The position numbers were made by a program, and so were the translations under genes. A DNA stretch of 31,274 nucleotides from a virus: positions 1 to 31,274 of the IMG/VR virus record IMGVR_UViG_3300017717_000037; one strand, 5' to 3'. Below, piece by piece: positions 3,908-13,688 of the stretch (within the stretch, counting starts at the first letter, position 1; every line of letters begins with the position of its first letter). The notes beneath the pieces were generated by a model. It saw nothing but the letters and a program-made list of their open reading frames with translations. It did not search any database and was not told where the DNA came from.

Positions 3908-4158
3908 TACTTCTTTTTCTTTCTTTTAAAGGTTGCTACATTAGTAGGCTTACCACCCACTCCTTGTTTAACACTACGTTTTCTTTTTACTGCTGATGTC
4001 TTCTGTGCTGATGTCATTCGCTTTGCTTTAGCTAGTGGTACACATTTAGGATACTTACGTTTAGATCCCTTGCTTCTACCACATGGTTGATACTTACCAT
4101 TCTTCTTTGGTGCTCCAATATCAACCCACTTCTCACCAACCCATTTACGTAAACTCAT
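3907..4158 (-). CDS. Lysine-rich small protein (DUF5872-like), cassette member
   Basis: This 83-residue protein starts MSLRKWVGEKWVDIGAPKKN and continues with YQPCGRSKGSKRKYPKCVPL, AKRMTSAQKTSAVKRKRSV and a terminal KRKKKK. The Cys residues in CGRSKGSKRKYPKC and the basic tail fit a family I know from marine viruses (DUF5872-like from memory), of unproven function. The high positive charge suggests DNA or RNA binding. Its ATG overlaps the stop of the 39-residue membrane protein (ATGA), and its own stop overlaps the next ATG, so ribosomes probably pass directly between these genes. Confidence 0.85.
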   Translation of the reverse strand: MSLRKWVGEKWVDIGAPKKNGKYQPCGRSKGSKRKYPKCVPLAKAKRMTSAQKTSAVKRKRSVKQGVGGKPTNVATFKRKKKK

Positions 4159-6484: not shown

Positions 6485-6517
6485 GGGCTATCATTAATTT
6501 GGTAGCCCTTTTTTTTT
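6485..6517 (+). terminator. Intrinsic terminator after the first early gene
   Basis: GGGCTATC (6485-6492) pairs with GGTAGCCC (6501-6508), allowing one mismatch or wobble near the loop, and a run of nine T follows immediately (6509-6517). It lies 18 bases after the stop codon, in the correct orientation for the plus-strand gene. Confidence 0.9.
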
Positions 6518-6764: not shown

Positions 6765-6792
6765 TTGCACTTATGCATTGTATATATATAAT
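6765..6792 (+). promoter_or_regulatory. Early promoter P1 with TGCA-N4-TGCA dyad
   Basis: TTGCA-CTTA-TGCAT (6765-6778) is followed by a perfect -10 box TATAAT at 6787-6792. The bases TTGCAC act as a poor -35 at 16-base spacing, so the dyad may be where an activator replaces the -35, or an operator. CTTGCACTTATGCA recurs exactly before 9636 and a variant dyad occurs before 11006. The predicted start is near 6799, just before the Shine-Dalgarno of the 6811 gene. Confidence 0.7.
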
Positions 6793-6810
6793 ATAACCAA
6801 GGAGAATGAT

Positions 6811-7044
6811 ATGTTAAAACTAATACAAGAATCACTGACTCGTCAACAGTCAGAAGAATATATGCAGAACAAAGACAACGTGCAGTTACTAGATCATATT
6901 ATATTATGCTTACAAGACAGCATGAAGATCAATTCAGGTAGTGACATGGCTTTGATCAAGGCAGAGTTACTGCATAAATATATTGCAGAGAAAGCACAAC
7001 TAGTAAAGTACATTGAAACTTATGAGGAGAATAATAATGAGTAA
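6811..7044 (+). CDS. Small early protein of unknown function, 77 residues
   Basis: The start at 6811 is fixed by AAGGAGA a few bases upstream and by the promoter in front of it. An upstream in-frame ATG lies before the promoter and is rejected. The protein starts MLKLIQESLTRQQSEEYMQN and is helical and charged (LIKAELLHKYIAEKAQLVKY), with no membrane segment or Cys motif. It overlaps the next start by eight bases. It opens the second early block, which runs to about 9516. I do not recognise a family. Confidence 0.8.
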   Translation: MLKLIQESLTRQQSEEYMQNKDNVQLLDHIILCLQDSMKINSGSDMALIKAELLHKYIAEKAQLVKYIETYEENNNE

Positions 7045-7378
7045 GGTAATAGCAGAACAAACACATGAACGATACTTGAATAGACAGATGATAGAGAATG
7101 GTTGTAAGTTTATGATGGAGTACAACTATCGAGCAAAGAGATTAGCTTATGCTTATCTATCTATTGTAGTACTACAAGCACGACTAAACTTTCTTGAGAA
7201 ATATCGTAGTGATAATATAGCACAAGTACATGACCTATGGATTGAGCATAAAAGTATATTGTTAAGTGAACTCAAACAGCTAATCAAAAGAAAAGACTAC
7301 AATAGTTTTCAGTTAGCTTCACAACAAACTCAACAAGCATGGAGAAAATATTATAGGGAGGATAGACATGTCCATTAA
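7037..7378 (+). CDS. Early protein of unknown function, 113 residues
   Basis: The start ATG at 7037 has GAGGAG upstream, while the longer frame from 7013 would begin inside the previous gene without a binding site. The protein starts MSKVIAEQTHERYLNRQMIE, is rich in Tyr, Arg, Lys and Gln, and looks all-helical (AYLSIVVLQARLNFLEKYRS; KQLIKRKDYNSFQLASQQTQ). It has no recognisable catalytic residues. Its end overlaps the start of the ArdC-like gene by 11 bases, so the two are translated together. Anti-defence or host-takeover roles are plausible only by company. Confidence 0.8.
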   Translation: MSKVIAEQTHERYLNRQMIENGCKFMMEYNYRAKRLAYAYLSIVVLQARLNFLEKYRSDNIAQVHDLWIEHKSILLSELKQLIKRKDYNSFQLASQQTQQAWRKYYREDRHVH

Positions 7379-8264
7379 AACATTAGCTGAAGATAACATA
7401 AAAGAAATCACCGAGGGTATTATACGTGACATGGAATCACATGACATGAAACAACCATTTGTACCCAAGTGGATTACTAATCTGCATATGAATGTAGATG
7501 GATACCAATACACAGGATGGAATCAGTTTCATTTGAACTACAAGTATGGATACTCAACACCTATCTGGGGTACATACAATCAATGGAATAAGATTGGATT
7601 GCATCCAGCACCTAGATCAGGTAGACCATTGTGGCAACCAATGACATTCAAGACAGAAGATAAAAAAACAGGTGAAGAAAAAATTATACAACGATTCAAA
7701 GCAGTAGCAATACATTCTATAGATGATGTAAGTGGTGACTCTATATTAATAGAAGATCTAAAAGATTATTTATTAAATAGAATAAATATAGCTACAGAAT
7801 ATGCACGAATAGAAAGTATAGATAAACAAGTGAGTAGATTAGATGCAAAGATAACACATGGTAGTAATCGTGCTTGTTATATACCAAGTACAGATGAGAT
7901 CATGATGCCACAACACACAGCATTTAAGAAGACAGAGAGTTACTACTCAACATTATTCCATGAGATTACTCATTGGAGTGGGCATAAGACTAGATGTAAT
8001 CGTACACTATCAGGTTCGTTTGCATCAAATGATTATGCTTTCGAAGAACTTATAGCAGAACTTGGTGCTAGTTTTCACATGGCTAAGTATGGTATGTTAC
8101 ACACAACCAGGCAAGACCATGTGCATTACTTAAAGTCATGGGCTAAGGCTCTTAGAGATAAGCCAGATGCACTACGTTCTGCTTGTAAGTATGCTAGTCA
8201 ATCTTTCTTTTACATTAGGGATGTAACTAATAAGATAGATAGCATAGAACAAGTAGCAGTATAG
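7368..8264 (+). CDS. ArdC-like antirestriction / zincin metallopeptidase protein
   Basis: This is a 298-residue protein with two recognisable parts. The N-terminal half has the ArdC (DUF1738) look: W-G-TYNQWNKIGLHPAPRSG, then FKAVAIHSIDDVSGD. ArdC-type N-domains bind single-stranded DNA and protect incoming plasmid DNA from restriction. The C-terminal half is a zincin: FHEITHWSGH with H198, E199 and H202, and the downstream Glu in FEELIAELGASF (E226 or E227) as the third zinc ligand. Family knowledge places this fold in plasmid ArdC and phage polyvalent proteins. The target is unknown. A strong ribosome binding site (GGGAGG) precedes the ATG. Early expression suits protection of entering DNA. 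All zinc ligands look intact. Confidence 0.85.
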   Translation: MSIKTLAEDNIKEITEGIIRDMESHDMKQPFVPKWITNLHMNVDGYQYTGWNQFHLNYKYGYSTPIWGTYNQWNKIGLHPAPRSGRPLWQPMTFKTEDKKTGEEKIIQRFKAVAIHSIDDVSGDSILIEDLKDYLLNRINIATEYARIESIDKQVSRLDAKITHGSNRACYIPSTDEIMMPQHTAFKKTESYYSTLFHEITHWSGHKTRCNRTLSGSFASNDYAFEELIAELGASFHMAKYGMLHTTRQDHVHYLKSWAKALRDKPDALRSACKYASQSFFYIRDVTNKIDSIEQVAV

Positions 8265-8273
8265 GAGGTGAAC

Positions 8274-8348
8274 ATGTACGCAGTAAAAATTATATGGAGT
8301 ATAAATATAATAGTGTGGATGTACATTATTTTAATAACAATATATTAA
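8274..8348 (+). CDS. 24-residue hydrophobic membrane peptide
   Basis: This tiny frame is preceded by AGGAGGTG at 8263-8270, a near-perfect match to the anti-Shine-Dalgarno and the strongest I saw in the window, three bases before the ATG. The peptide begins MYAVKIIWSINIIV and continues with WMYIILITIY, so one lysine aside it is entirely membrane-compatible. The stop TAA is immediately followed by GGAG, the ribosome binding site of the next gene, so the peptide fits exactly between two genes. A single-span toxin-like, signalling or superinfection-exclusion peptide is possible. The alternative is that the Shine-Dalgarno serves only as a relay site for ribosomes reinitiating downstream. Confidence 0.65.
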   Translation: MYAVKIIWSINIIVWMYIILITIY

Positions 8349-8359
8349 GGAGAATGATT

Positions 8360-8695
8360 ATGCAGAAAGATGAATGGTATAATATAGTAAGGACTACCGA
8401 TCCTGAAACAAGTAGAGTTGCCGCCAAACAAGAAATAGGTAGGGTGCGTAAAGCTAAAGACAGAGTACTAGAATTAATCATGGAGATAGGTGGACTATCT
8501 GGTATGACTGATGAAGAACTAGCATATCAAGATGGTGTGATTACATCTAAGTATAGAACAGCTAGAGTGTGGTTAGAACGTGAAGGGTATATCGAAGCTA
8601 ATGGTACACGTAAATCTACACATGGTAAACAACAACGCATATGGTTTGCAACAAGACAAGGCAAAGATATGTATATAAATATAAAGGAGAATTAA
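8360..8695 (+). CDS. Winged-helix DNA-binding protein
   Basis: The start at 8360 has AAGGAG seven bases upstream. The longer frame from 8294 would run through the upstream peptide gene. The protein has 111 residues, starting MQKDEWYNIVRTTDPETSRV. It contains AKDRVLELIMEIGGLSGMTD and EELAYQDGV, then SKYRTARVWLEREGYIEANG, the helix-turn-helix plus a following RKSTHGKQQRIWFATRQG wing. This is the small phage winged-helix family with the ending G-x-R/Q-x-x-W-x-A-T, found in many siphoviruses and podoviruses. DNA binding is likely. The regulon is unknown. It is one of four HTH-type proteins in the early region and a candidate reader of the TGCA dyads. Confidence 0.8.
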   Translation: MQKDEWYNIVRTTDPETSRVAAKQEIGRVRKAKDRVLELIMEIGGLSGMTDEELAYQDGVITSKYRTARVWLEREGYIEANGTRKSTHGKQQRIWFATRQGKDMYINIKEN

Positions 8696-9016
8696 ATGAT
8701 AAACCAAGAGCAACGAGAAAAAATATTTCCAACATTATGTAAACGTACACAAGACAGAATCAAAAGTGGTGAAGATATATTCTGGATGGTAGATTTTGCA
8801 GATGAACCACAGATCTTTTCATATACTTATTATGAAATGATTGAACAATTAAATAGTTGGAGTGGGTTTGTTCAAGATGATTGGTCAATAGCATATGATC
8901 TAAAAGTGTTTGATGATTACTGGGATTGTCTTGATTACTTTAATACTAAACGTCAAGAGATACGTGATGCGTATGAAGCAGAATCACAACTAGCTTCGGA
9001 GGATAGTCATGTATAG
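8696..9016 (+). CDS. Acidic early protein of unknown function, 106 residues
   Basis: It starts MINQEQREKIFPTLCKRTQD and has a ribosome binding site AAAGGAG before the ATG, which directly abuts the previous stop. The protein is acidic and aromatic-rich (DIFWMVDFADEPQIFSYTYY; DDWSIAYDLKVFDDYWDCL). The strong negative charge over a small size is a feature of DNA-mimic and other inhibitor proteins of early phage regions, but no family is recognisable, so this is only a suggestion. It overlaps the next gene by eight bases. Confidence 0.8.
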   Translation: MINQEQREKIFPTLCKRTQDRIKSGEDIFWMVDFADEPQIFSYTYYEMIEQLNSWSGFVQDDWSIAYDLKVFDDYWDCLDYFNTKRQEIRDAYEAESQLASEDSHV

Positions 9017-9296
9017 AAGTGAACACATGAGTATGCTACATGAAATAGCACGTGCAGTTAATCGTGTCAAAGATATGGTTGATGTGTATATAGATTTCAT
9101 AGATGAGAATGATATAGAAGATAAGGTACGAGAGATAGAGTACATGCATTACAATAGATCAGGTGGCATCTATAATATACATGATTGTAATTGGACTCTT
9201 GATAAAGTTATAGGTGTAGTAGAAATGATAGAGAAAACTTATGAACCTAAAAGACATATAGCATATAGAAAAAAAAAGGAGAATAAGAATGGGTAG
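9009..9296 (+). CDS. Small early protein of unknown function, 95 residues
   Basis: It has a strong ribosome binding site (GGAGGATAGTC, then ATG). The protein begins MYRSEHMSMLHEIARAVNRV and is helical with acidic patches (DMVDVYIDFIDENDIEDKV) and a lysine-rich tail (YRKKKENKNG). No motif is recognisable. It overlaps the next gene by eight bases within the same early block. The alternating acidic N-terminal and basic C-terminal parts suggest a small protein-binding factor, but I cannot assign a role. Confidence 0.8.
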   Translation: MYRSEHMSMLHEIARAVNRVKDMVDVYIDFIDENDIEDKVREIEYMHYNRSGGIYNIHDCNWTLDKVIGVVEMIEKTYEPKRHIAYRKKKENKNG

Positions 9297-9516
9297 GTCA
9301 TCAATAAACTTAGAAGATTTTAAAGATGTACCTCATCATCATAGTAAGATGTTGTATCAGATAGCCAAAGACAAAGGACTAACTGTTACACAACTTACTT
9401 ATGAAGTGGATTTATCTTATACATTTGTATTGCAGATATTAAAAGGCATACAAAACATGAGTCCCAAGACTGCAAGTAGAATAAGAAAGAAGTATAACTT
9501 TCCTATCTATGGATAA
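9289..9516 (+). CDS. Cro/CI-type helix-turn-helix regulator
   Basis: This is a 75-residue protein with KDKGLTVTQLTYEVDLSYTF followed by VLQILKGIQNMSPKTASRIR, the standard five-helix HTH_XRE layout (recognition helix around DLSYTFVLQILKG). It ends soon after the fold, like small Cro proteins. The ribosome binding site AAAAGGAG precedes the ATG. It closes the second early block, after which comes an intergenic gap with promoter P2. It is a good candidate for the protein that binds the TGCA-N4-TGCA dyads at the three early promoters, although nothing in the sequence proves the pairing. Confidence 0.85.
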   Translation: MGRSSINLEDFKDVPHHHSKMLYQIAKDKGLTVTQLTYEVDLSYTFVLQILKGIQNMSPKTASRIRKKYNFPIYG

Positions 9517-9601
9517 TAAGTGTAAGGTTCAGGCATAAAAAACGTACAGAGAAAAATGATTAAATTATTCCTGTCCCTAATATCTGGGCATAAACAAAGC
9601 C

Positions 9602-9629
9602 TTGCACTTATGCAATAGATGAGTATGAT
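9602..9629 (+). promoter_or_regulatory. Early promoter P2 with TGCA-N4-TGCA dyad
   Basis: TTGCA-CTTA-TGCAA (9602-9615, perfect dyad) is followed by TATGAT at 9624-9629, a five-of-six match to the -10 consensus at exactly the same spacing as in P1. The predicted transcription start falls on 9636, the A of the next ATG, so the message appears leaderless. The 14 bases CTTGCACTTATGCA are identical to P1. The rest of the 119-base gap upstream holds no gene. Confidence 0.7.
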
Positions 9630-9635
9630 AATGAT

Positions 9636-9848
9636 ATGAAAAAATTAAATACATACATGGAACAACTTACTTTAGTTGCAGATAAAAAAGGTATCAACTT
9701 GCGAGAGGCTTTCCGTAAGTCTGGTATACAAGATAGTACTTACCATAGAATAAATACTGGTGAGTTTTGTTTAAGGGAATCAACAGCACAAACAGTATGG
9801 GAGTACATACATGAAGAACACTACAACAAAGTCCGTAAAGAAATCTAG
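9636..9848 (+). CDS. Small HTH regulator, probably from a leaderless mRNA
   Basis: The 70-residue protein starts MKKLNTYMEQLTLVADKKGI and contains NLREAFRKSGIQDSTYHRIN with TGEFCLRESTAQTVWEYI, a compact Cro-like helix-turn-helix. There is no Shine-Dalgarno before the ATG, unlike almost all other early genes. The -10 box of P2 sits so that the transcript should begin at the ATG. Leaderless regulators are known (lambda cI from PRM). The gene opens the third early block and may regulate its own promoter through the overlapping dyad. The HTH assignment is good and the target is inference. Confidence 0.8.
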   Translation: MKKLNTYMEQLTLVADKKGINLREAFRKSGIQDSTYHRINTGEFCLRESTAQTVWEYIHEEHYNKVRKEI

Positions 9849-10215
9849 GACAGGTAGATACGAAGCATATAATGGAGAGATGATTTACTTTCAATCCAAT
9901 GCTAAAGCAGATAGATACTTACAACTTGTAAAATTTTTAGAGAATAAATCTATTACTGATTTAGAAATCAAACCTACTTATGATGCAGTTGTACAGAATA
10001 AAAAGATGTGTACATTTACACCAGACTTTAGATACATGACACTTGAACCTAACGATCACCGAGGATATCAAGTTATTGAAGACGTGGTGGGTGTAACTAC
10101 AGATGTATACAAATTAAAAGTAAGTCTTATTGAAGCAACGAACTTCATTAAGGTACATAGTATACCAGCAAAGGAGATAGAAACATGGGCAGAGATTATA
10201 CCATTAAACCAATAG
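9811..10215 (+). CDS. DUF1064-type phage nuclease
   Basis: It has 134 residues, with GGGAG before the ATG. After a basic leader the protein reads GRYEAYNGEMIYFQSNAKAD, RYLQLVKFLENKSITDLEIK, PTYDAVV, FTPDFRYMTLEPN, YQVIEDVVGVTTDVYKLKVS. This is the DUF1064 layout: S-K-E-A-RY-L, then L-QP-Y, Y-x-ADF-Y, then VEDVKG-T-VYKLK. The family is a small PD-(D/E)XK-like nuclease, usually considered a Holliday-junction or replication-associated endonuclease. D and ED are present, but the usual Lys of the E-x-K motif appears as Val (EDVVG), so activity is uncertain. It overlaps both neighbours and sits among replication genes. Confidence 0.75.
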   Translation: MKNTTTKSVKKSRTGRYEAYNGEMIYFQSNAKADRYLQLVKFLENKSITDLEIKPTYDAVVQNKKMCTFTPDFRYMTLEPNDHRGYQVIEDVVGVTTDVYKLKVSLIEATNFIKVHSIPAKEIETWAEIIPLNQ

Positions 10216-10535
10216 ATGACGAGTGGATGCCAGATGATAAGTTGCAACTCTGGTTTTTCAATACATATCAACATGCAACAGACGGAGATTTAAATTATGA
10301 AACAGATCAATTTCGAGACTACTACCTTTCAAGAGGGGAAAGAAAGTACGACTGGTCAGCTTGCTTCAGGTTCTGGTGTCGTAAATCTTTCAGATTGGAT
10401 AAAGCTACATCAACGACCAAGGCCTATACTAAACAAGATAGAGTTAGTAACAACAACAATGACTCAATCAGATCTTATCTTGATAGATACAATAGCAACA
10501 GTAACGTACGACAAATTAGAACAGATAAAAAATAA
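10185..10535 (+). CDS. DnaT/replisome-organiser-like protein
   Basis: This is a 116-residue protein with AAGGAG before the ATG. Residues ~40-75 read QFRDYYLSRGERKYDWSACF followed by RFWCRKSFRL, matching the F-x-x-YW-x-x-G-x-K-DW-x-x-x-x-W-W domain at the end of many phage replication proteins (DnaT-like, DNA binding). The C-terminal third is Asn/Ser/Arg-rich and probably disordered. There is no initiator or helicase domain, so it likely works with the next protein and the host helicase. The gene is overlapped out of frame by the next gene by 77 to 239 bases, depending on the start used there. Confidence 0.6.
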   Translation: MGRDYTIKPIDDEWMPDDKLQLWFFNTYQHATDGDLNYETDQFRDYYLSRGERKYDWSACFRFWCRKSFRLDKATSTTKAYTKQDRVSNNNNDSIRSYLDRYNSNSNVRQIRTDKK

Positions 10536-10902
10536 CAGTGAGTTGACTGAAGTTAAGGAACGTATCAGTCGTGTGTTGTATAGTGTAGAAAAAGATTTAC
10601 ATTGGAACTGTAGTGTAGAACAACAAGACAAAAAGATAATACCATTCTTAAAAGTATTAGCTGATACCTTCCAAGTAGAAATGCCCAGGGCAGAAGGTCT
10701 AAAGTTTTACATAGAATCTATAAGAGATATTCCACCATTGTTATTACAAGAAGCAACAGTCAAAGTATTAAAGACTCATAAGTATAATACTTTCCCTTTG
10801 CCTGCCACCTTACGAGAAGCTATTGACACAAAGCTAGATCAAATGTTATCCTTTTATAATTGGTGCAAGGTGTCTTACTCACGTATTGCAACAATACAAT
10901 AA
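10459..10902 (+). CDS. Helicase-loader-like replication protein
   Basis: I use the ATG at 10459, giving 147 residues (MTQSDLILIDTIATVTYDKL). An earlier in-frame ATG at 10297 has GGAG upstream and would give a 201-residue product overlapping the DnaT-like gene by 239 bases. The conserved part is C-terminal: IIPFLKVLADTFQVEMP, then ESIRDIPPLLLQEATVKVLK and THKYNTFPLPATLREAI. The helix-rich fold with a late F-P-x-P-x-x-x-R/I motif resembles the G39P and lambda-P class of helicase loaders. No ATPase motif exists, as expected for that class. It closes the third block just before a strong terminator. The function is moderately supported. Start choice is uncertain. Confidence 0.6.
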   Translation: MTQSDLILIDTIATVTYDKLEQIKNNSELTEVKERISRVLYSVEKDLHWNCSVEQQDKKIIPFLKVLADTFQVEMPRAEGLKFYIESIRDIPPLLLQEATVKVLKTHKYNTFPLPATLREAIDTKLDQMLSFYNWCKVSYSRIATIQ

Positions 10903-10918
10903 TCATTCTCCGATATTG

Positions 10919-10952
10919 AGCCAGTAACATCCCTTAGTTACTGGCTTTTTTT
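10919..10952 (+). terminator. Intrinsic terminator after the replication block
   Basis: GCCAGTAAC (10920-10928) pairs perfectly with GTTACTGGC (10937-10945), extendable by A10919-T10946, and is followed by seven T (10946-10952). It lies 18 bases after the loader-like gene's stop and is oriented for the plus strand. It separates the third early block from the recombination block, which has its own promoter. Confidence 0.95.
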
Positions 10953-10964
10953 ATGTTGATTACA

Positions 10965-10992
10965 ATGCAGAAATGCATTACAATAATTTAAT
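10965..10992 (+). promoter_or_regulatory. Early promoter P3 with variant TGCA-N4-TGCA dyad
   Basis: ATGCA-GAAA-TGCAT (10965-10978, perfect dyad) precedes two possible -10 boxes: TACAAT at 10979-10984 and TTTAAT at 10987-10992 (the latter at the same spacing as in P1 and P2). With TACAAT the message would start near 10991 and keep the full Shine-Dalgarno AAAGGAGA of the exonuclease gene. With TTTAAT part of it would be lost. The dyad arms match P1 and P2, while the four spacer bases differ. Confidence 0.6.
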
Positions 10993-11005: not shown

Positions 11006-11839
11006 ATGAAGAACTTTGATAGAACCATTGGTCTTGGTGGTAGTGATGCTAATAGTATATGGCATAACTATGACCCAGTAAAACTCTGGGAACTAAAGAC
11101 TAATAAAAGATTAGAAGACGATTTAAGTGATAACTTTCAGGTGCAACTTGGTACATATACTGAGTCGTTTCATGTAGATTGGTTACGTAAACATCACAAA
11201 CCATTTCATGGTATATCTGAATCCACTCATACTTACACTAGAGAATTGTATGGCATAACATTATACGCACATCTTGATGCTATTGTAAGAATAAATGGAT
11301 TGGAATATATACTAGAGTGTAAACACAGTAACAGTAGAGTAAGTCCAGAAGTAAAAGCTAGATACTATGCACCACAGTTACATCACTATATGCATATACT
11401 TGGTGATAGTTATTGTTACATATCTATCATATGTGGCAATGATACACCAGAAGTATTACGTGTAGATTTCAATGAGGAGTTTTGGAATAGACTAAAATCT
11501 AAGATGATAAGGTTCTGGTCGTTTGTTAAAAACGATAAGCAACCACCAGTGATAGGTAAGCCTAGTGATTCAGATAAAGAGATAGTGTCTGACATATTAG
11601 TCAATGAATACAAGGACTATAACATGATAGATAATACAGAGTATGTAAGATTAGATTCTACATTAGATCAATACTCTGGTGCTATCGAAGGCTTCGAAGA
11701 AACGAAGAAGAAGATTAAGTTACTAGTACCAAAGGATGCAAAGAAAGTATCGTATCCTAATAGTAATTATGTAATAACACGCAACAAGAAAGGTACACTT
11801 GTTGTAACTAAATCAAAGGAGAATGATAATGGCAGATAA
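11006..11839 (+). CDS. YqaJ/lambda-type 5'-3' exonuclease
   Basis: This enzyme digests one strand of duplex DNA and hands single strands to the annealase next door. I use ATG 11006 with AAAGGAGA in front. An upstream ATG lies inside the promoter dyad. The protein has 277 residues with GGSDA at 11-15, LGTYTE (E53), then the core HLDAIVRINGLEYILECK with D91, E104 and K106, and APQLHHYMHIL (Q124). These are the lambda-exonuclease-family signature residues (D-Ex K plus the Q-x-x-Y helix). All are present. The C-terminal quarter is charged and probably contacts the annealase. The end overlaps the ERF gene by 11 bases. Confidence 0.9.
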   Translation: MKNFDRTIGLGGSDANSIWHNYDPVKLWELKTNKRLEDDLSDNFQVQLGTYTESFHVDWLRKHHKPFHGISESTHTYTRELYGITLYAHLDAIVRINGLEYILECKHSNSRVSPEVKARYYAPQLHHYMHILGDSYCYISIICGNDTPEVLRVDFNEEFWNRLKSKMIRFWSFVKNDKQPPVIGKPSDSDKEIVSDILVNEYKDYNMIDNTEYVRLDSTLDQYSGAIEGFEETKKKIKLLVPKDAKKVSYPNSNYVITRNKKGTLVVTKSKENDNGR

Positions 11840-12443
11840 AAAAACTAAACCTGATTTTGACCAAGATCTTTTTAAACTATTGCATGATGTAAATAATCCA
11901 TACAATAGTGATAAAAACCCTCACTTCAATAGTAAGTTTGCTGGATTAGGTAGTTGTTTAAAGACAATCAAACCAGCACTTAAAGAAAATAACTTTGCTT
12001 TACAACAGATAGTAAAACAACTTGAAAGTGGTGGTGCAGTATTACAAACTAATCTTATACATCTATCAGGTAAAGTTGTATGTGATGGTGGTATACCTTT
12101 AGTATCTAAAGATGCTAATGATCCACAAAAACTTGGTGGTTCTATTACGTATGCTAGACGTTATGGTATGTGTGCAATACTTGGTATTGTAGGTGATGAT
12201 GATGATGATGGTAACTTATCTAGTAAACCAGATACTTCACCAAAAGCATTAGAAAGATTACAAAAAGATTTTGTACAAACTATTCATGAATCAGCAGATA
12301 AACCAATGCTAGATGATTTGTATACGTCATACAAAGAAGAAATATCAGCATTAAAAAATGAAGACCAAAAGTGGTTTAGAAATGAATACAAAAAACAAAT
12401 AACATTTATGAAAGAAAAGGAGAATAAAAATGCAGACAGTTAA
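11829..12443 (+). CDS. erf: ERF-family single-strand annealing protein
   Basis: This annealase binds single strands and promotes pairing during recombination-dependent replication. GGAG lies seven bases before the ATG at 11829, whereas the in-frame ATG at 11823 is only one base from it, so 11829 is the start. The protein has 204 residues. It reads NPYNSDKNPHFNSKFAGLGS, then LKTIKPALKENNFALQQIV and GGSITYARRYGMCAILGIVG, followed by a D-rich DDDDDG. The SKY/F-A-L and TYARRY motifs are diagnostic of ERF proteins. The pairing of exonuclease, ERF and SSB is a classic synaptase set. A ribosome binding site for the SSB lies near its end. Confidence 0.93.
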   Translation: MADKKTKPDFDQDLFKLLHDVNNPYNSDKNPHFNSKFAGLGSCLKTIKPALKENNFALQQIVKQLESGGAVLQTNLIHLSGKVVCDGGIPLVSKDANDPQKLGGSITYARRYGMCAILGIVGDDDDDGNLSSKPDTSPKALERLQKDFVQTIHESADKPMLDDLYTSYKEEISALKNEDQKWFRNEYKKQITFMKEKENKNADS

Positions 12444-12771
12444 TCAAGTTACAATACTAGGACATTGTGCAGTAGATCCAGAGTCAATGAAGAACGAAGA
12501 CTTTTGTAAGTTAGTAGTTACTACCAACTCAGGTAGTAAGGACAATCGTAAAGCAGATCATCATAAGATCAGTGTCTTTGATCCTTACAAGACTGGATTT
12601 ATTATGCAGTATATCAAGAAAGGTATGATTGTATTTGTTCAAGGTCAACTACAGTATAGCAAACTAGATGATGGTACATATTATACCAGTATCGTGTGTG
12701 GTAAGTTTGATAGTAAGGTAGAACTCTGTGAGAAAAAAGCAGTAGCAGATGATGACGCACCACCATTCTAA
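12430..12771 (+). CDS. ssb: Single-stranded DNA-binding protein (OB fold)
   Basis: It has 113 residues, with AAAGGAG before the ATG. The order of the OB fold is visible: NQVTILGHCAVDPE at the start, CKLVVTTNSG, then KADHHKISVFD, IKKGMIVFVQGQLQYSKLDD and TYYTSIVCGKFD. The C-terminus is DDDAPPF, close to the acidic DDDIPF tip by which bacterial SSBs recruit partners. The protein is short, with almost no linker. It probably protects single strands made by the exonuclease and may attract host replication proteins. Its stop overlaps the next gene's beginning by 23 bases. Confidence 0.9.
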   Translation: MQTVNQVTILGHCAVDPESMKNEDFCKLVVTTNSGSKDNRKADHHKISVFDPYKTGFIMQYIKKGMIVFVQGQLQYSKLDDGTYYTSIVCGKFDSKVELCEKKAVADDDAPPF

Positions 12772-13244: not shown

Positions 13245-13688
13245 ATGATAAATGAATTAGTAAATCAATTAATGATAGATGAAGGTAGTGTTACCAATGA
13301 TAGTGGTAGACACATAGCATACCTATGCCCAGCAGATAAATGGACAATAGGTTATGGTATTGAAGTACAAGATCATGGACTATCAGAAAAAGAAGCAGAA
13401 GATTTATTAAGACAAAGAGTTATGGCAGTAGTAGATGAAGTACATATGAACTATCCATTTATAAAGTCTGCACCTTTACCTATCAAGTTATCTTTTTATA
13501 ACATGGCATACAACTTAGGTATAACTAGACTTAGTAAATTTAAAAAGATGATTGCTGCACTCGAAGCTACAGACTATTTAACTGCAAGTAAAGAAGCTAA
13601 AGACAGTCAATGGTATAATCAAGTAGGTGAAAGAGCAGAACGTATTGTAAATATATTTAAAGATAGTGCAGACAAACATTTCTCTTGA
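13245..13688 (+). CDS. Endolysin, GH24 phage lysozyme
   Basis: It hydrolyses the cell-wall glycan for host lysis. It has 147 residues, a normal length for a T4/P22-type lysozyme, with AGGAG before the ATG. The N-terminal catalytic Glu is in LMIDEG (E13). The second site is AYLCPADKWTIGYG with C28 and T34 in the D/C-x5-T arrangement, then GIEVQDHGLSEKEAEDLL. The spacing from E13 to C28 (14 residues) is longer than the usual eight, showing a small insert. The rest (KLSFYNMAYNLGITRLSKF) is the typical lysozyme lobe. There is no signal peptide, so it needs a holin. It is last in the recombination block, facing the holin of the opposite strand. Confidence 0.9.
   Translation: MINELVNQLMIDEGSVTNDSGRHIAYLCPADKWTIGYGIEVQDHGLSEKEAEDLLRQRVMAVVDEVHMNYPFIKSAPLPIKLSFYNMAYNLGITRLSKFKKMIAALEATDYLTASKEAKDSQWYNQVGERAERIVNIFKDSADKHFS

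Follow-up and report, generated by a model that had tools for sequence, protein, structure and literature searches.

Small phage repressors that regulate their own genes are well known. The operator palindrome of phage 434 measures 14 bp, the same size as the dyad described here, and Aca and the C proteins of restriction-modification systems are small XRE-type proteins that are autoregulated via short palindromes, in one small operon each. To our knowledge, transcription control in uncultivated marine phages has been little measured. Here we analyse the entire IMG/VR virus record IMGVR_UViG_3300017717_000037 (31,274 bases; hereafter the window), whose terminase large subunit has its best match in the phage collection in Pelagibacter phage EXVC031P Hodr (OQ414635.1; 65% identity). 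Three copies of a TGCA-N4-TGCA dyad stand in its early region. These dyads are probably the operators of HTH_9636, a small helix-turn-helix (HTH) protein, which would act as a Cro-type repressor of its own gene and, with no CI partner, of a regulon comprising three to four early promoters.

The three sites and the elements around them are the following:
6765–6778, unstranded: operator-like dyad 1, TTGCACTTATGCAT, preceding the ArdC-containing early genes, its left arm in the place of a -35 box
6787–6792, plus strand: -10-like TATAAT of site 1, 16 bases past TTGCAC
6485–6508, plus strand: intrinsic-terminator-like stem upstream of site 1, consensus match only
9602–9615, unstranded: operator-like dyad 2, TTGCACTTATGCAA, preceding the HTH_9636 gene, whose autoregulation it most likely mediates
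9624–9629, plus strand: -10-like TATGAT of site 2, ending 6 bases short of the HTH_9636 ATG
9636–9848, plus strand: HTH_9636, 70 aa, proposed Cro-type repressor predicted to bind the dyad (AlphaFold model, fold matches, co-occurrence)
10918–10947, plus strand: intrinsic-terminator-like stem immediately upstream of site 3, consensus match only
10956–10961, plus strand: -35-like TTGATT of the exonuclease promoter; relatives share the layout, but TTGAT is part of the retrieval pattern
10965–10978, unstranded: operator-like dyad 3, ATGCAGAAATGCAT, within the -35/-10 spacer
10979–10984, plus strand: -10-like TACAAT of site 3; relatives have TATAAT in 11/12 distinct contexts

The pattern WTGCANNNNTGCAW (WTGCA-N4-TGCAW) matches three times in the 31,274 bases, whereas 100 dinucleotide shuffles averaged 0.20 and never gave as many as three; the window holds no further exact dyad outside the three sites. 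When one mismatch to YTGCANNNNTGCAR is allowed, the window gives four matches against 4.4 expected, with no weak extra sites above chance, so that the exact dyads alone stand out. At sites 1 and 2 the 14 bases CTTGCACTTATGCA are identical, and a gap of 8 bases separates the dyad from the -10-like box in both. The first-pass annotation of this DNA had reported the dyads at these coordinates, each a short way upstream of an early operon and next to a -10-like box, together with the identity and equal spacing of the first two and the lack of anything similar before the late operon; all of these points hold.

The promoters themselves differ in layout. The left arm of sites 1 and 2, TTGCAC, agrees with TTGACA at three of six positions, in line with the poor -35 boxes described earlier. 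That description fits site 3 less well: here TTGATT and TACAAT are set apart by a 17-base spacer, a promoter-like pair that had been overlooked, and the dyad lies inside this spacer, abutting the -10-like box. A sigma-70 promoter scan of the region returned 40 matches compared with 39.4 in shuffles, and in the absence of an excess the site-3 promoter call rests on conservation. The terminator-like stems are not enriched either (3 versus 3.2 in shuffles). Since the -10-like box of site 2 ends 6 bases before the ATG, the HTH_9636 transcript from this site would be leaderless or nearly so.

Relatives were collected from viral_contigs with a site-3-like pattern, which yielded 31 stretches, 28 of them carrying at least two of the window's early genes; in these loci the dyad, TTGAT and the following TTA are conserved by construction, being in the pattern. 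The expressions used to class the sites demanded TTGAT and TATAAT/TACAAT at site 3 and, in most site-2 cases, TATG[AC]TA. The boxes were thus presupposed, and the site-3 layout count of 12/12 is not a free test; freer support comes from L059 and L063, two loci retrieved by protein, whose dyad lies within the 17-base gap of TTGAAT-N17-TATAAT. In 13/13 distinct main-clade upstream sequences the site-2 dyad is followed by TATGAT or TATGCT. Site 1, which was unused in retrieval, is present in all ten distinct main-clade contexts (ArdC at least 52% identical), where it is the sole dyad in the 1.5 kb upstream. TTGCAN-N16-18-TATAAT/TATACT is found in all 10 contexts reading TTGCA (best of spacers 15–19); nine of the 19 class-1 contexts start with A, C or GTGCA and hence are not site 1. 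Among more distant ArdC contexts, one or two upstream dyads occur in 5/11 and none in 6/11, the latter comprising four HTH-less loci (L015, L167, L170 and L171) and two HTH-bearing ones; both ArdC counts omit matches with less than 900 bases upstream or starting past residue 60. In the main clade, sites 1 and 3 often have one dyad flank extended to TGCATTGT (on the opposite strand ACAATGCA), and the recognition site may therefore exceed 14 bp.

Across these sites the N4 centre drifts (CTTA, TTTA, CTTG, GTTA, TAAA, TATA, GAAA, GTTC) and the TGCA arms are kept. That the dyads are functionless, arising by chance or as inherited repeats, is hardly credible: the window has three copies only, as such an origin would allow, but dyad counts far exceed shuffles and background, and neither the centre nor the flanks share the constancy of the arms.

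A search of viral_contigs with HTH_9636 retrieved loci by protein and not by motif, and the best 80 of 175 loci were kept (34–100% identical). Loci from this search and from the exonuclease search below were not dyad-selected, but their query alignments came mostly from dyad-retrieved loci. Of 54 distinct sequences upstream of the HTH homologue, 29 have an exact TGCA-N4-TGCA within 110 bases. When 4-mer inverted repeats with spacers of 0–12 were enumerated with no motif supplied, TGCA-N4-TGCA ranked first, occurring in 20/29 representatives versus a shuffled mean of 0.5, and the best of any dyad in 40 shuffles was four representatives (contexts shorter than 60 bases would have been skipped; none was dropped and 29/29 were used). 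Where the HTH is less than 60% identical, the 41 distinct upstream sequences comprise 20 with the strict dyad and 30 with a strict or loose one (YTGC-N6-GCAR), and other spacers reach 3 at most; background windows of the same loci give 218/7890 (strict) and 368/7890 (loose). The 11 sequences with neither form belong to nine L079-type loci, L109 (CTGCAATAACGCAT) and L117, the last scored as a miss, here and among the 54 sequences above, owing to start-codon choice, with CTGCATAAATGCAC 2 bases before the ATG where homology begins. In loci of 40–65% GC the dyad is often CTGCA-N4-TGCAG and stands before the HTH, exonuclease and replication-initiator-like genes; in four of these loci the ArdC homologue is preceded by tandem dyad pairs. 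The replication-initiator-like gene (FHHIAWAM...) is so labelled because it resembles such genes and matches the DnaT-like protein of the window at 25%. The arrangement of regulator and operator has thus very probably been kept in relatives whose HTH protein is only about a third identical.

The association extends to the recombination genes. The exonuclease-alignment search gave 75 loci, and one locus was kept per 200-base exonuclease start. Among loci with at least 2.5 kb upstream, a dyad lies within 600 bp in 14/14 HTH-bearing versus 0/21 HTH-less loci (Fisher 4e-10, kinship ignored), and within 200 bp in 10/14 versus 0/21. When the upstream limit is dropped, the counts become 20/20 versus 1/30 (600 bp) and 15/20 versus 0/30 (200 bp). 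A pooled set of 87 non-redundant exonucleases, 74 of them scorable and some fetched by dyad, excludes matches shorter than 180 aa and 13 HTH-less rows with less than 2.5 kb upstream; in this set the strict dyad lies within 600 bp of the exonuclease in 43/53 HTH-bearing versus 0/21 HTH-less loci, and a strict or looser one in 51/53 versus 2/21. The two loose matches in HTH-less loci (L186 and L189) fall inside an 85-codon open frame ending just before the exonuclease. The enrichment at site 1, upstream of the HTH gene and at the exonuclease agrees with the proposal, made before any relative was compared, that the dyads mark a phage regulon, and that reading was essentially right.

Several observations weigh against this interpretation. 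L067 and L075 bear the HTH gene yet have no dyad upstream of their ArdC homologue, and in L078 and L081 the 200 bp next to the exonuclease contain no dyad, strict or loose. The nine L079-type loci carry only a half-degenerate, one-arm dyad, CTGCATAAGTGGAG, at the HTH promoter; the two of them that were examined (L079 and L088) have perfect dyads at the exonuclease and another early gene. Nine of 26 distinct tandem dyad pairs are spaced 8, 16 or 35 bp, and a few dyads are found away from the early region, for example at 13490 and 32715 of the L010 record. The exonuclease tree, with about 4 changes of HTH and 5 of dyad, gives only two independent pairs for the association (sign test p 0.5 to 1), too few for a phylogenetic pair test. 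Finally, two other HTH proteins, HTH_12749 and the winged wHTH_8360, co-occur with HTH_9636 inside the window's own clade.

This last point bears on the identity of the binder, for which four HTH proteins had been put forward. Binding by HTH_12749, wHTH_8360 or a host protein would fit the conservation of the first two alongside the dyads in the main clade, but we judge it unlikely. HTH_12749 is found by tblastn in 68/196 loci (63–100% identical, and 63–84% outside near-identical contigs); its own scan gave 24 loci, four of which (L121, L126, L130 and L131) are fragments where HTH_9636 was not seen. It was downgraded as binder, as it matches 0/53 distant loci bearing a HTH_9636 homologue; these loci span about 10 kb at most and the HTH_12749 query alignment contained main-clade sequences alone, which could have hidden distant forms. 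wHTH_8360 reaches 48% identity in the clade and outside it matches L173 alone, a locus with neither HTH_9636 nor the dyad. A host protein would leave unexplained both the absence of dyads at HTH-less exonucleases and their presence across loci of 32 to 65% GC. The fourth candidate, HTH_9289, was rejected: it occurs in only 18/196 loci, all 96–100% identical. Judged from the loci compared, HTH_9636 is the one of the four that stays with the dyad. No copies of HTH_9636 were found in hosts in two genome_contigs scans.

The first-pass annotation had left the mode of action between an activator and a repressor. In the former case HTH_9636 or another protein bound near -35 would recruit RNA polymerase to promoters with a poor -35, which we consider improbable, if a shade less so than another binder. 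The position of the TTGCAC arm at -35 in sites 1 and 2, with its half match to TTGACA, would suit an activator, but the site-3 dyad sits between the -35-like and -10-like boxes, where activators seldom sit. The distance from dyad to -10 varies from 8 bases (window sites 1 and 2) through 5 after TGCA (other main-clade site 2) to direct abutment (site 3), and in distant clades the dyad is often found 1–33 bases before the start codon, beside or over the Shine-Dalgarno sequence. Because a blocker tolerates such variation relative to the -10 box and start codon and an activator seldom does, repression is better supported than activation, and of the two modes proposed the repressor is favoured.

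The placement near start codons could also point to RNA, the palindrome forming a protein-bound hairpin beside the ribosome-binding site that controls translation. In distant clades it can indeed abut the Shine-Dalgarno sequence, as with TGCATATATGCAGTAGGAGG in L036. This explanation is very unlikely: the window dyads lie upstream of the -10-like box and so outside that promoter's transcript, the 4-base spacer is fixed, unlike a loop, and tandem copies favour whole helical turns, with spacings of 22, 31–32 or 41–42 bp in 17/26 distinct pairs.

The AlphaFold model of HTH_9636 (pLDDT 92.7, pTM 0.79; 36-row alignment) comprises helices at residues 7–17, 22–28, 33–40 and 48–69. Foldseek and VIA-align matches are mostly XRE-type, including Lp1 prophage protein 11, DdrO, ClgR, C proteins, HipB, P22 c2 and Aca1. 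The best Foldseek E value is 0.11 and the best Z is 6.5, and unrelated POU-type proteins tie with these; the structural matches therefore lend weak support to the XRE, or Cro/C1-type, superfamily, and they suggest a lambda-repressor-like HTH fold in which a particular family is not singled out. Among curated HTH models the window protein has no Pfam match; its homologue in L078 matches HTH_3 at E 0.002, below the cut-off. The best sequence relative in the PDB has E 0.029, and the family has no match in 50,697 deposited phage records (four tblastn queries; E limits 1 and 0.1). In the L067, L073, L078, L068 and L096 groups the presumed recognition helix reads PDSTYYR or QDSTYYR, and the inner base of the operator appears by eye looser, TGC[AG], than with PTSTYYR; a specificity code linking helix variant and inner base is possible. 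In addition, a second XRE-like open reading frame (...SQEELAHRIGC.SSLIHKWEQ...) overlaps the end of the Cro-like gene in distant clades:
L116, 5158–5412: second XRE-like open reading frame
L070, 5158–5421: second XRE-like open reading frame
L104, 1754–2017: second XRE-like open reading frame
L106, 2375–2635: second XRE-like open reading frame
L036, within 273–608: second XRE-like open reading frame

We propose the following course of events. HTH_9636, confidently predicted to fold as a lambda-repressor-like HTH protein, would bind as a dimer to the 14-bp palindrome YTGCA-N4-TGCAR, as its co-occurrence with the dyad suggests. From a position near the start codon or overlapping the -35/-10 region, it would block RNA polymerase. 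Three targets that carry sites would be repressed in this way: the operon of HTH_9636 itself, the early genes with ArdC, and the recombination genes for the exonuclease and ERF protein. In distant relatives the replication-initiator-like gene, which carries sites there, would be repressed as well. Early and recombination genes would thereby come under negative feedback that holds their expression in check and sets its timing. The genes downstream of the three sites are:
6811–8264, plus strand: first genes downstream of site 1, the last being an ArdC N-terminal/MPTase-PolyVal protein (7368–8264)
9811–10902, plus strand: genes downstream of HTH_9636, namely a DUF1064/resolvase-like protein, a DnaT-like protein (weak, below cut-off) and a protein of unknown function
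11006–12771, plus strand: recombination genes downstream of site 3
11006–11839, plus strand: RecE/YqaJ-like exonuclease (phrog_434, E 3e-25)
11829–12443, plus strand: ERF protein
12430–12771, plus strand: a further gene of the recombination block, which we take to encode an SSB-like protein

The ArdC-type protein matches PF08401 and PF18818. HTH_12749 (12749–12976), which follows the recombination genes and matches HTH_3 at E 0.0003, below the cut-off, is perhaps a second regulator. HTH_9289 (9289–9516) shows weak Cro/C1-like and PHROG regulator matches and lies on the same strand as its neighbour HTH_9636; confined to near-identical contigs, it is perhaps a recent acquisition beside the Cro-like gene.

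The assignment to a Cro-type role draws on relatives that possess a CI-like gene. In L070, L104, L106, L116 and others, a divergent CI-like gene (184 aa in the aligned part) stands back to back with the HTH_9636 homologue, and it is divergent from the HTH gene in all 14 loci having it. It shows a weak HTH, and three of four copies have a weak S24-like C-terminus that L106 lacks, all below Pfam cut-offs; PHROG matches are to the UmuD-like phrog_811 (E 8e-5, L116) and the regulator phrog_1373 (E 2e-4, L106). The CI-like profile matches 9/28 records, and 2 of the 19 records of at least 29 kb. These two long records are also the two of 21 tested that carry a tyrosine integrase. Back to back with a CI-like gene in integrase-bearing relatives, the HTH_9636 homologue therefore occupies the place of Cro. 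Moreover, in L097, L104, L107 and L108 the space between the divergent genes contains two dyads and, nearer the CI-like gene, a third near-dyad, for example:
L097, 2076–2179: two dyads and a near-dyad between the CI-like and Cro-like genes
L104, 1479–1582: two dyads and a near-dyad between the CI-like and Cro-like genes

The right operator of lambda has a comparable three-site arrangement between its two genes. A TGCA-N4-TGCA dyad is also seen in L016 (3944–4073), a phage contig without the window's early genes, where TGCACTATTGCA at 4031 separates a minus-strand CI-looking HTH gene from a small divergent HTH-like gene (both labelled by eye).

The window itself gives no match to the CI-like profile and has no divergent CI gene adjoining HTH_9636, nor does it match the integrase family PF00589, in a record that may be incomplete. 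Neither the CI-like gene nor an integrase was found in 14/16 long IMG/VR records tested for both, all classed linear and perhaps fragments. A search for S24 in 18 long records gave a single sub-threshold match, in L116's record, and PF00239 was found in 0/18 relatives. As the window yielded neither of the two genes, the Cro half would work alone there. We give even chances to a broader proposal, in which a large, mostly uncultivated group of marine phages, integrase-less and CI-less, would govern early expression solely with the Cro half of a lambda-like switch. In such phages a Cro repressor and CTGCA-N4-TGCAG operators would serve three or four dispersed early operons (its own gene, replication, recombination and ArdC), and shifts between temperate and virulent life would come from gain or loss of CI plus integrase, the Cro regulon persisting. 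As some members of the HTH_9636 family are accompanied by a CI-like gene and integrase and others are not, the family may reveal what Cro does without a lysogeny decision, a question hard to pose in lambda.

How uncultivated marine phages control transcription is hard to study, and the pair described here, a regulator with its candidate operator, is specific and testable. In addition, the dyad marks early operons from sequence alone, which could help tell early from late genes in metagenomic contigs.

Comparison with known systems places HTH_9636 near several of them. Hodr has distant homologues of the ArdC, DnaT-like, exonuclease and SSB-like proteins in the window's order, but no TGCA-N4-TGCA and no HTH_9636 homologue were found in it. 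The structural matches of HTH_9636 include Aca1 (7c0g, Z 4.9), whose palindromic target is 14 bp long; unlike Aca and the C proteins, the phage described here carries its site at several early operons. The region resembles the CI-Cro region of lambda, P22 and 434 in that a small single-domain HTH gene heads an early operon, dyads lie over promoters and some relatives have a divergent CI-like gene. It differs in that neither the window nor 14/16 long relatives yielded a CI-like gene or integrase, single sites stand before three separate operons, including the ArdC and recombination genes, and HTH_9636 is without a Pfam match. The lambda cI/cro genes are also described in PMC6550527. According to the same paper, the Cluster A mycobacteriophage repressor acts at many genomic operators or stoperators, the distances between site motifs correlating with those between repressors; a single phage-encoded regulator acting at multiple places in its genome is what we propose here too. 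The Cluster A repressor is there described as CI-like and monomeric, with 13–14 bp sites that lack dyad symmetry and no Cro analogue known, whereas the sites in the window phage are dyads at early promoters. SA97 is presented in PMC4632378 as a virulent phage with neither cI nor cro, and therefore offers no precedent for keeping Cro. A literature search for the dyad motif strings found no paper. Set beside these systems, the HTH_9636 family of regulators and its operator appear to be new as far as the searches reported here go, as does a CI-less regulon that is conserved over separate early operons.

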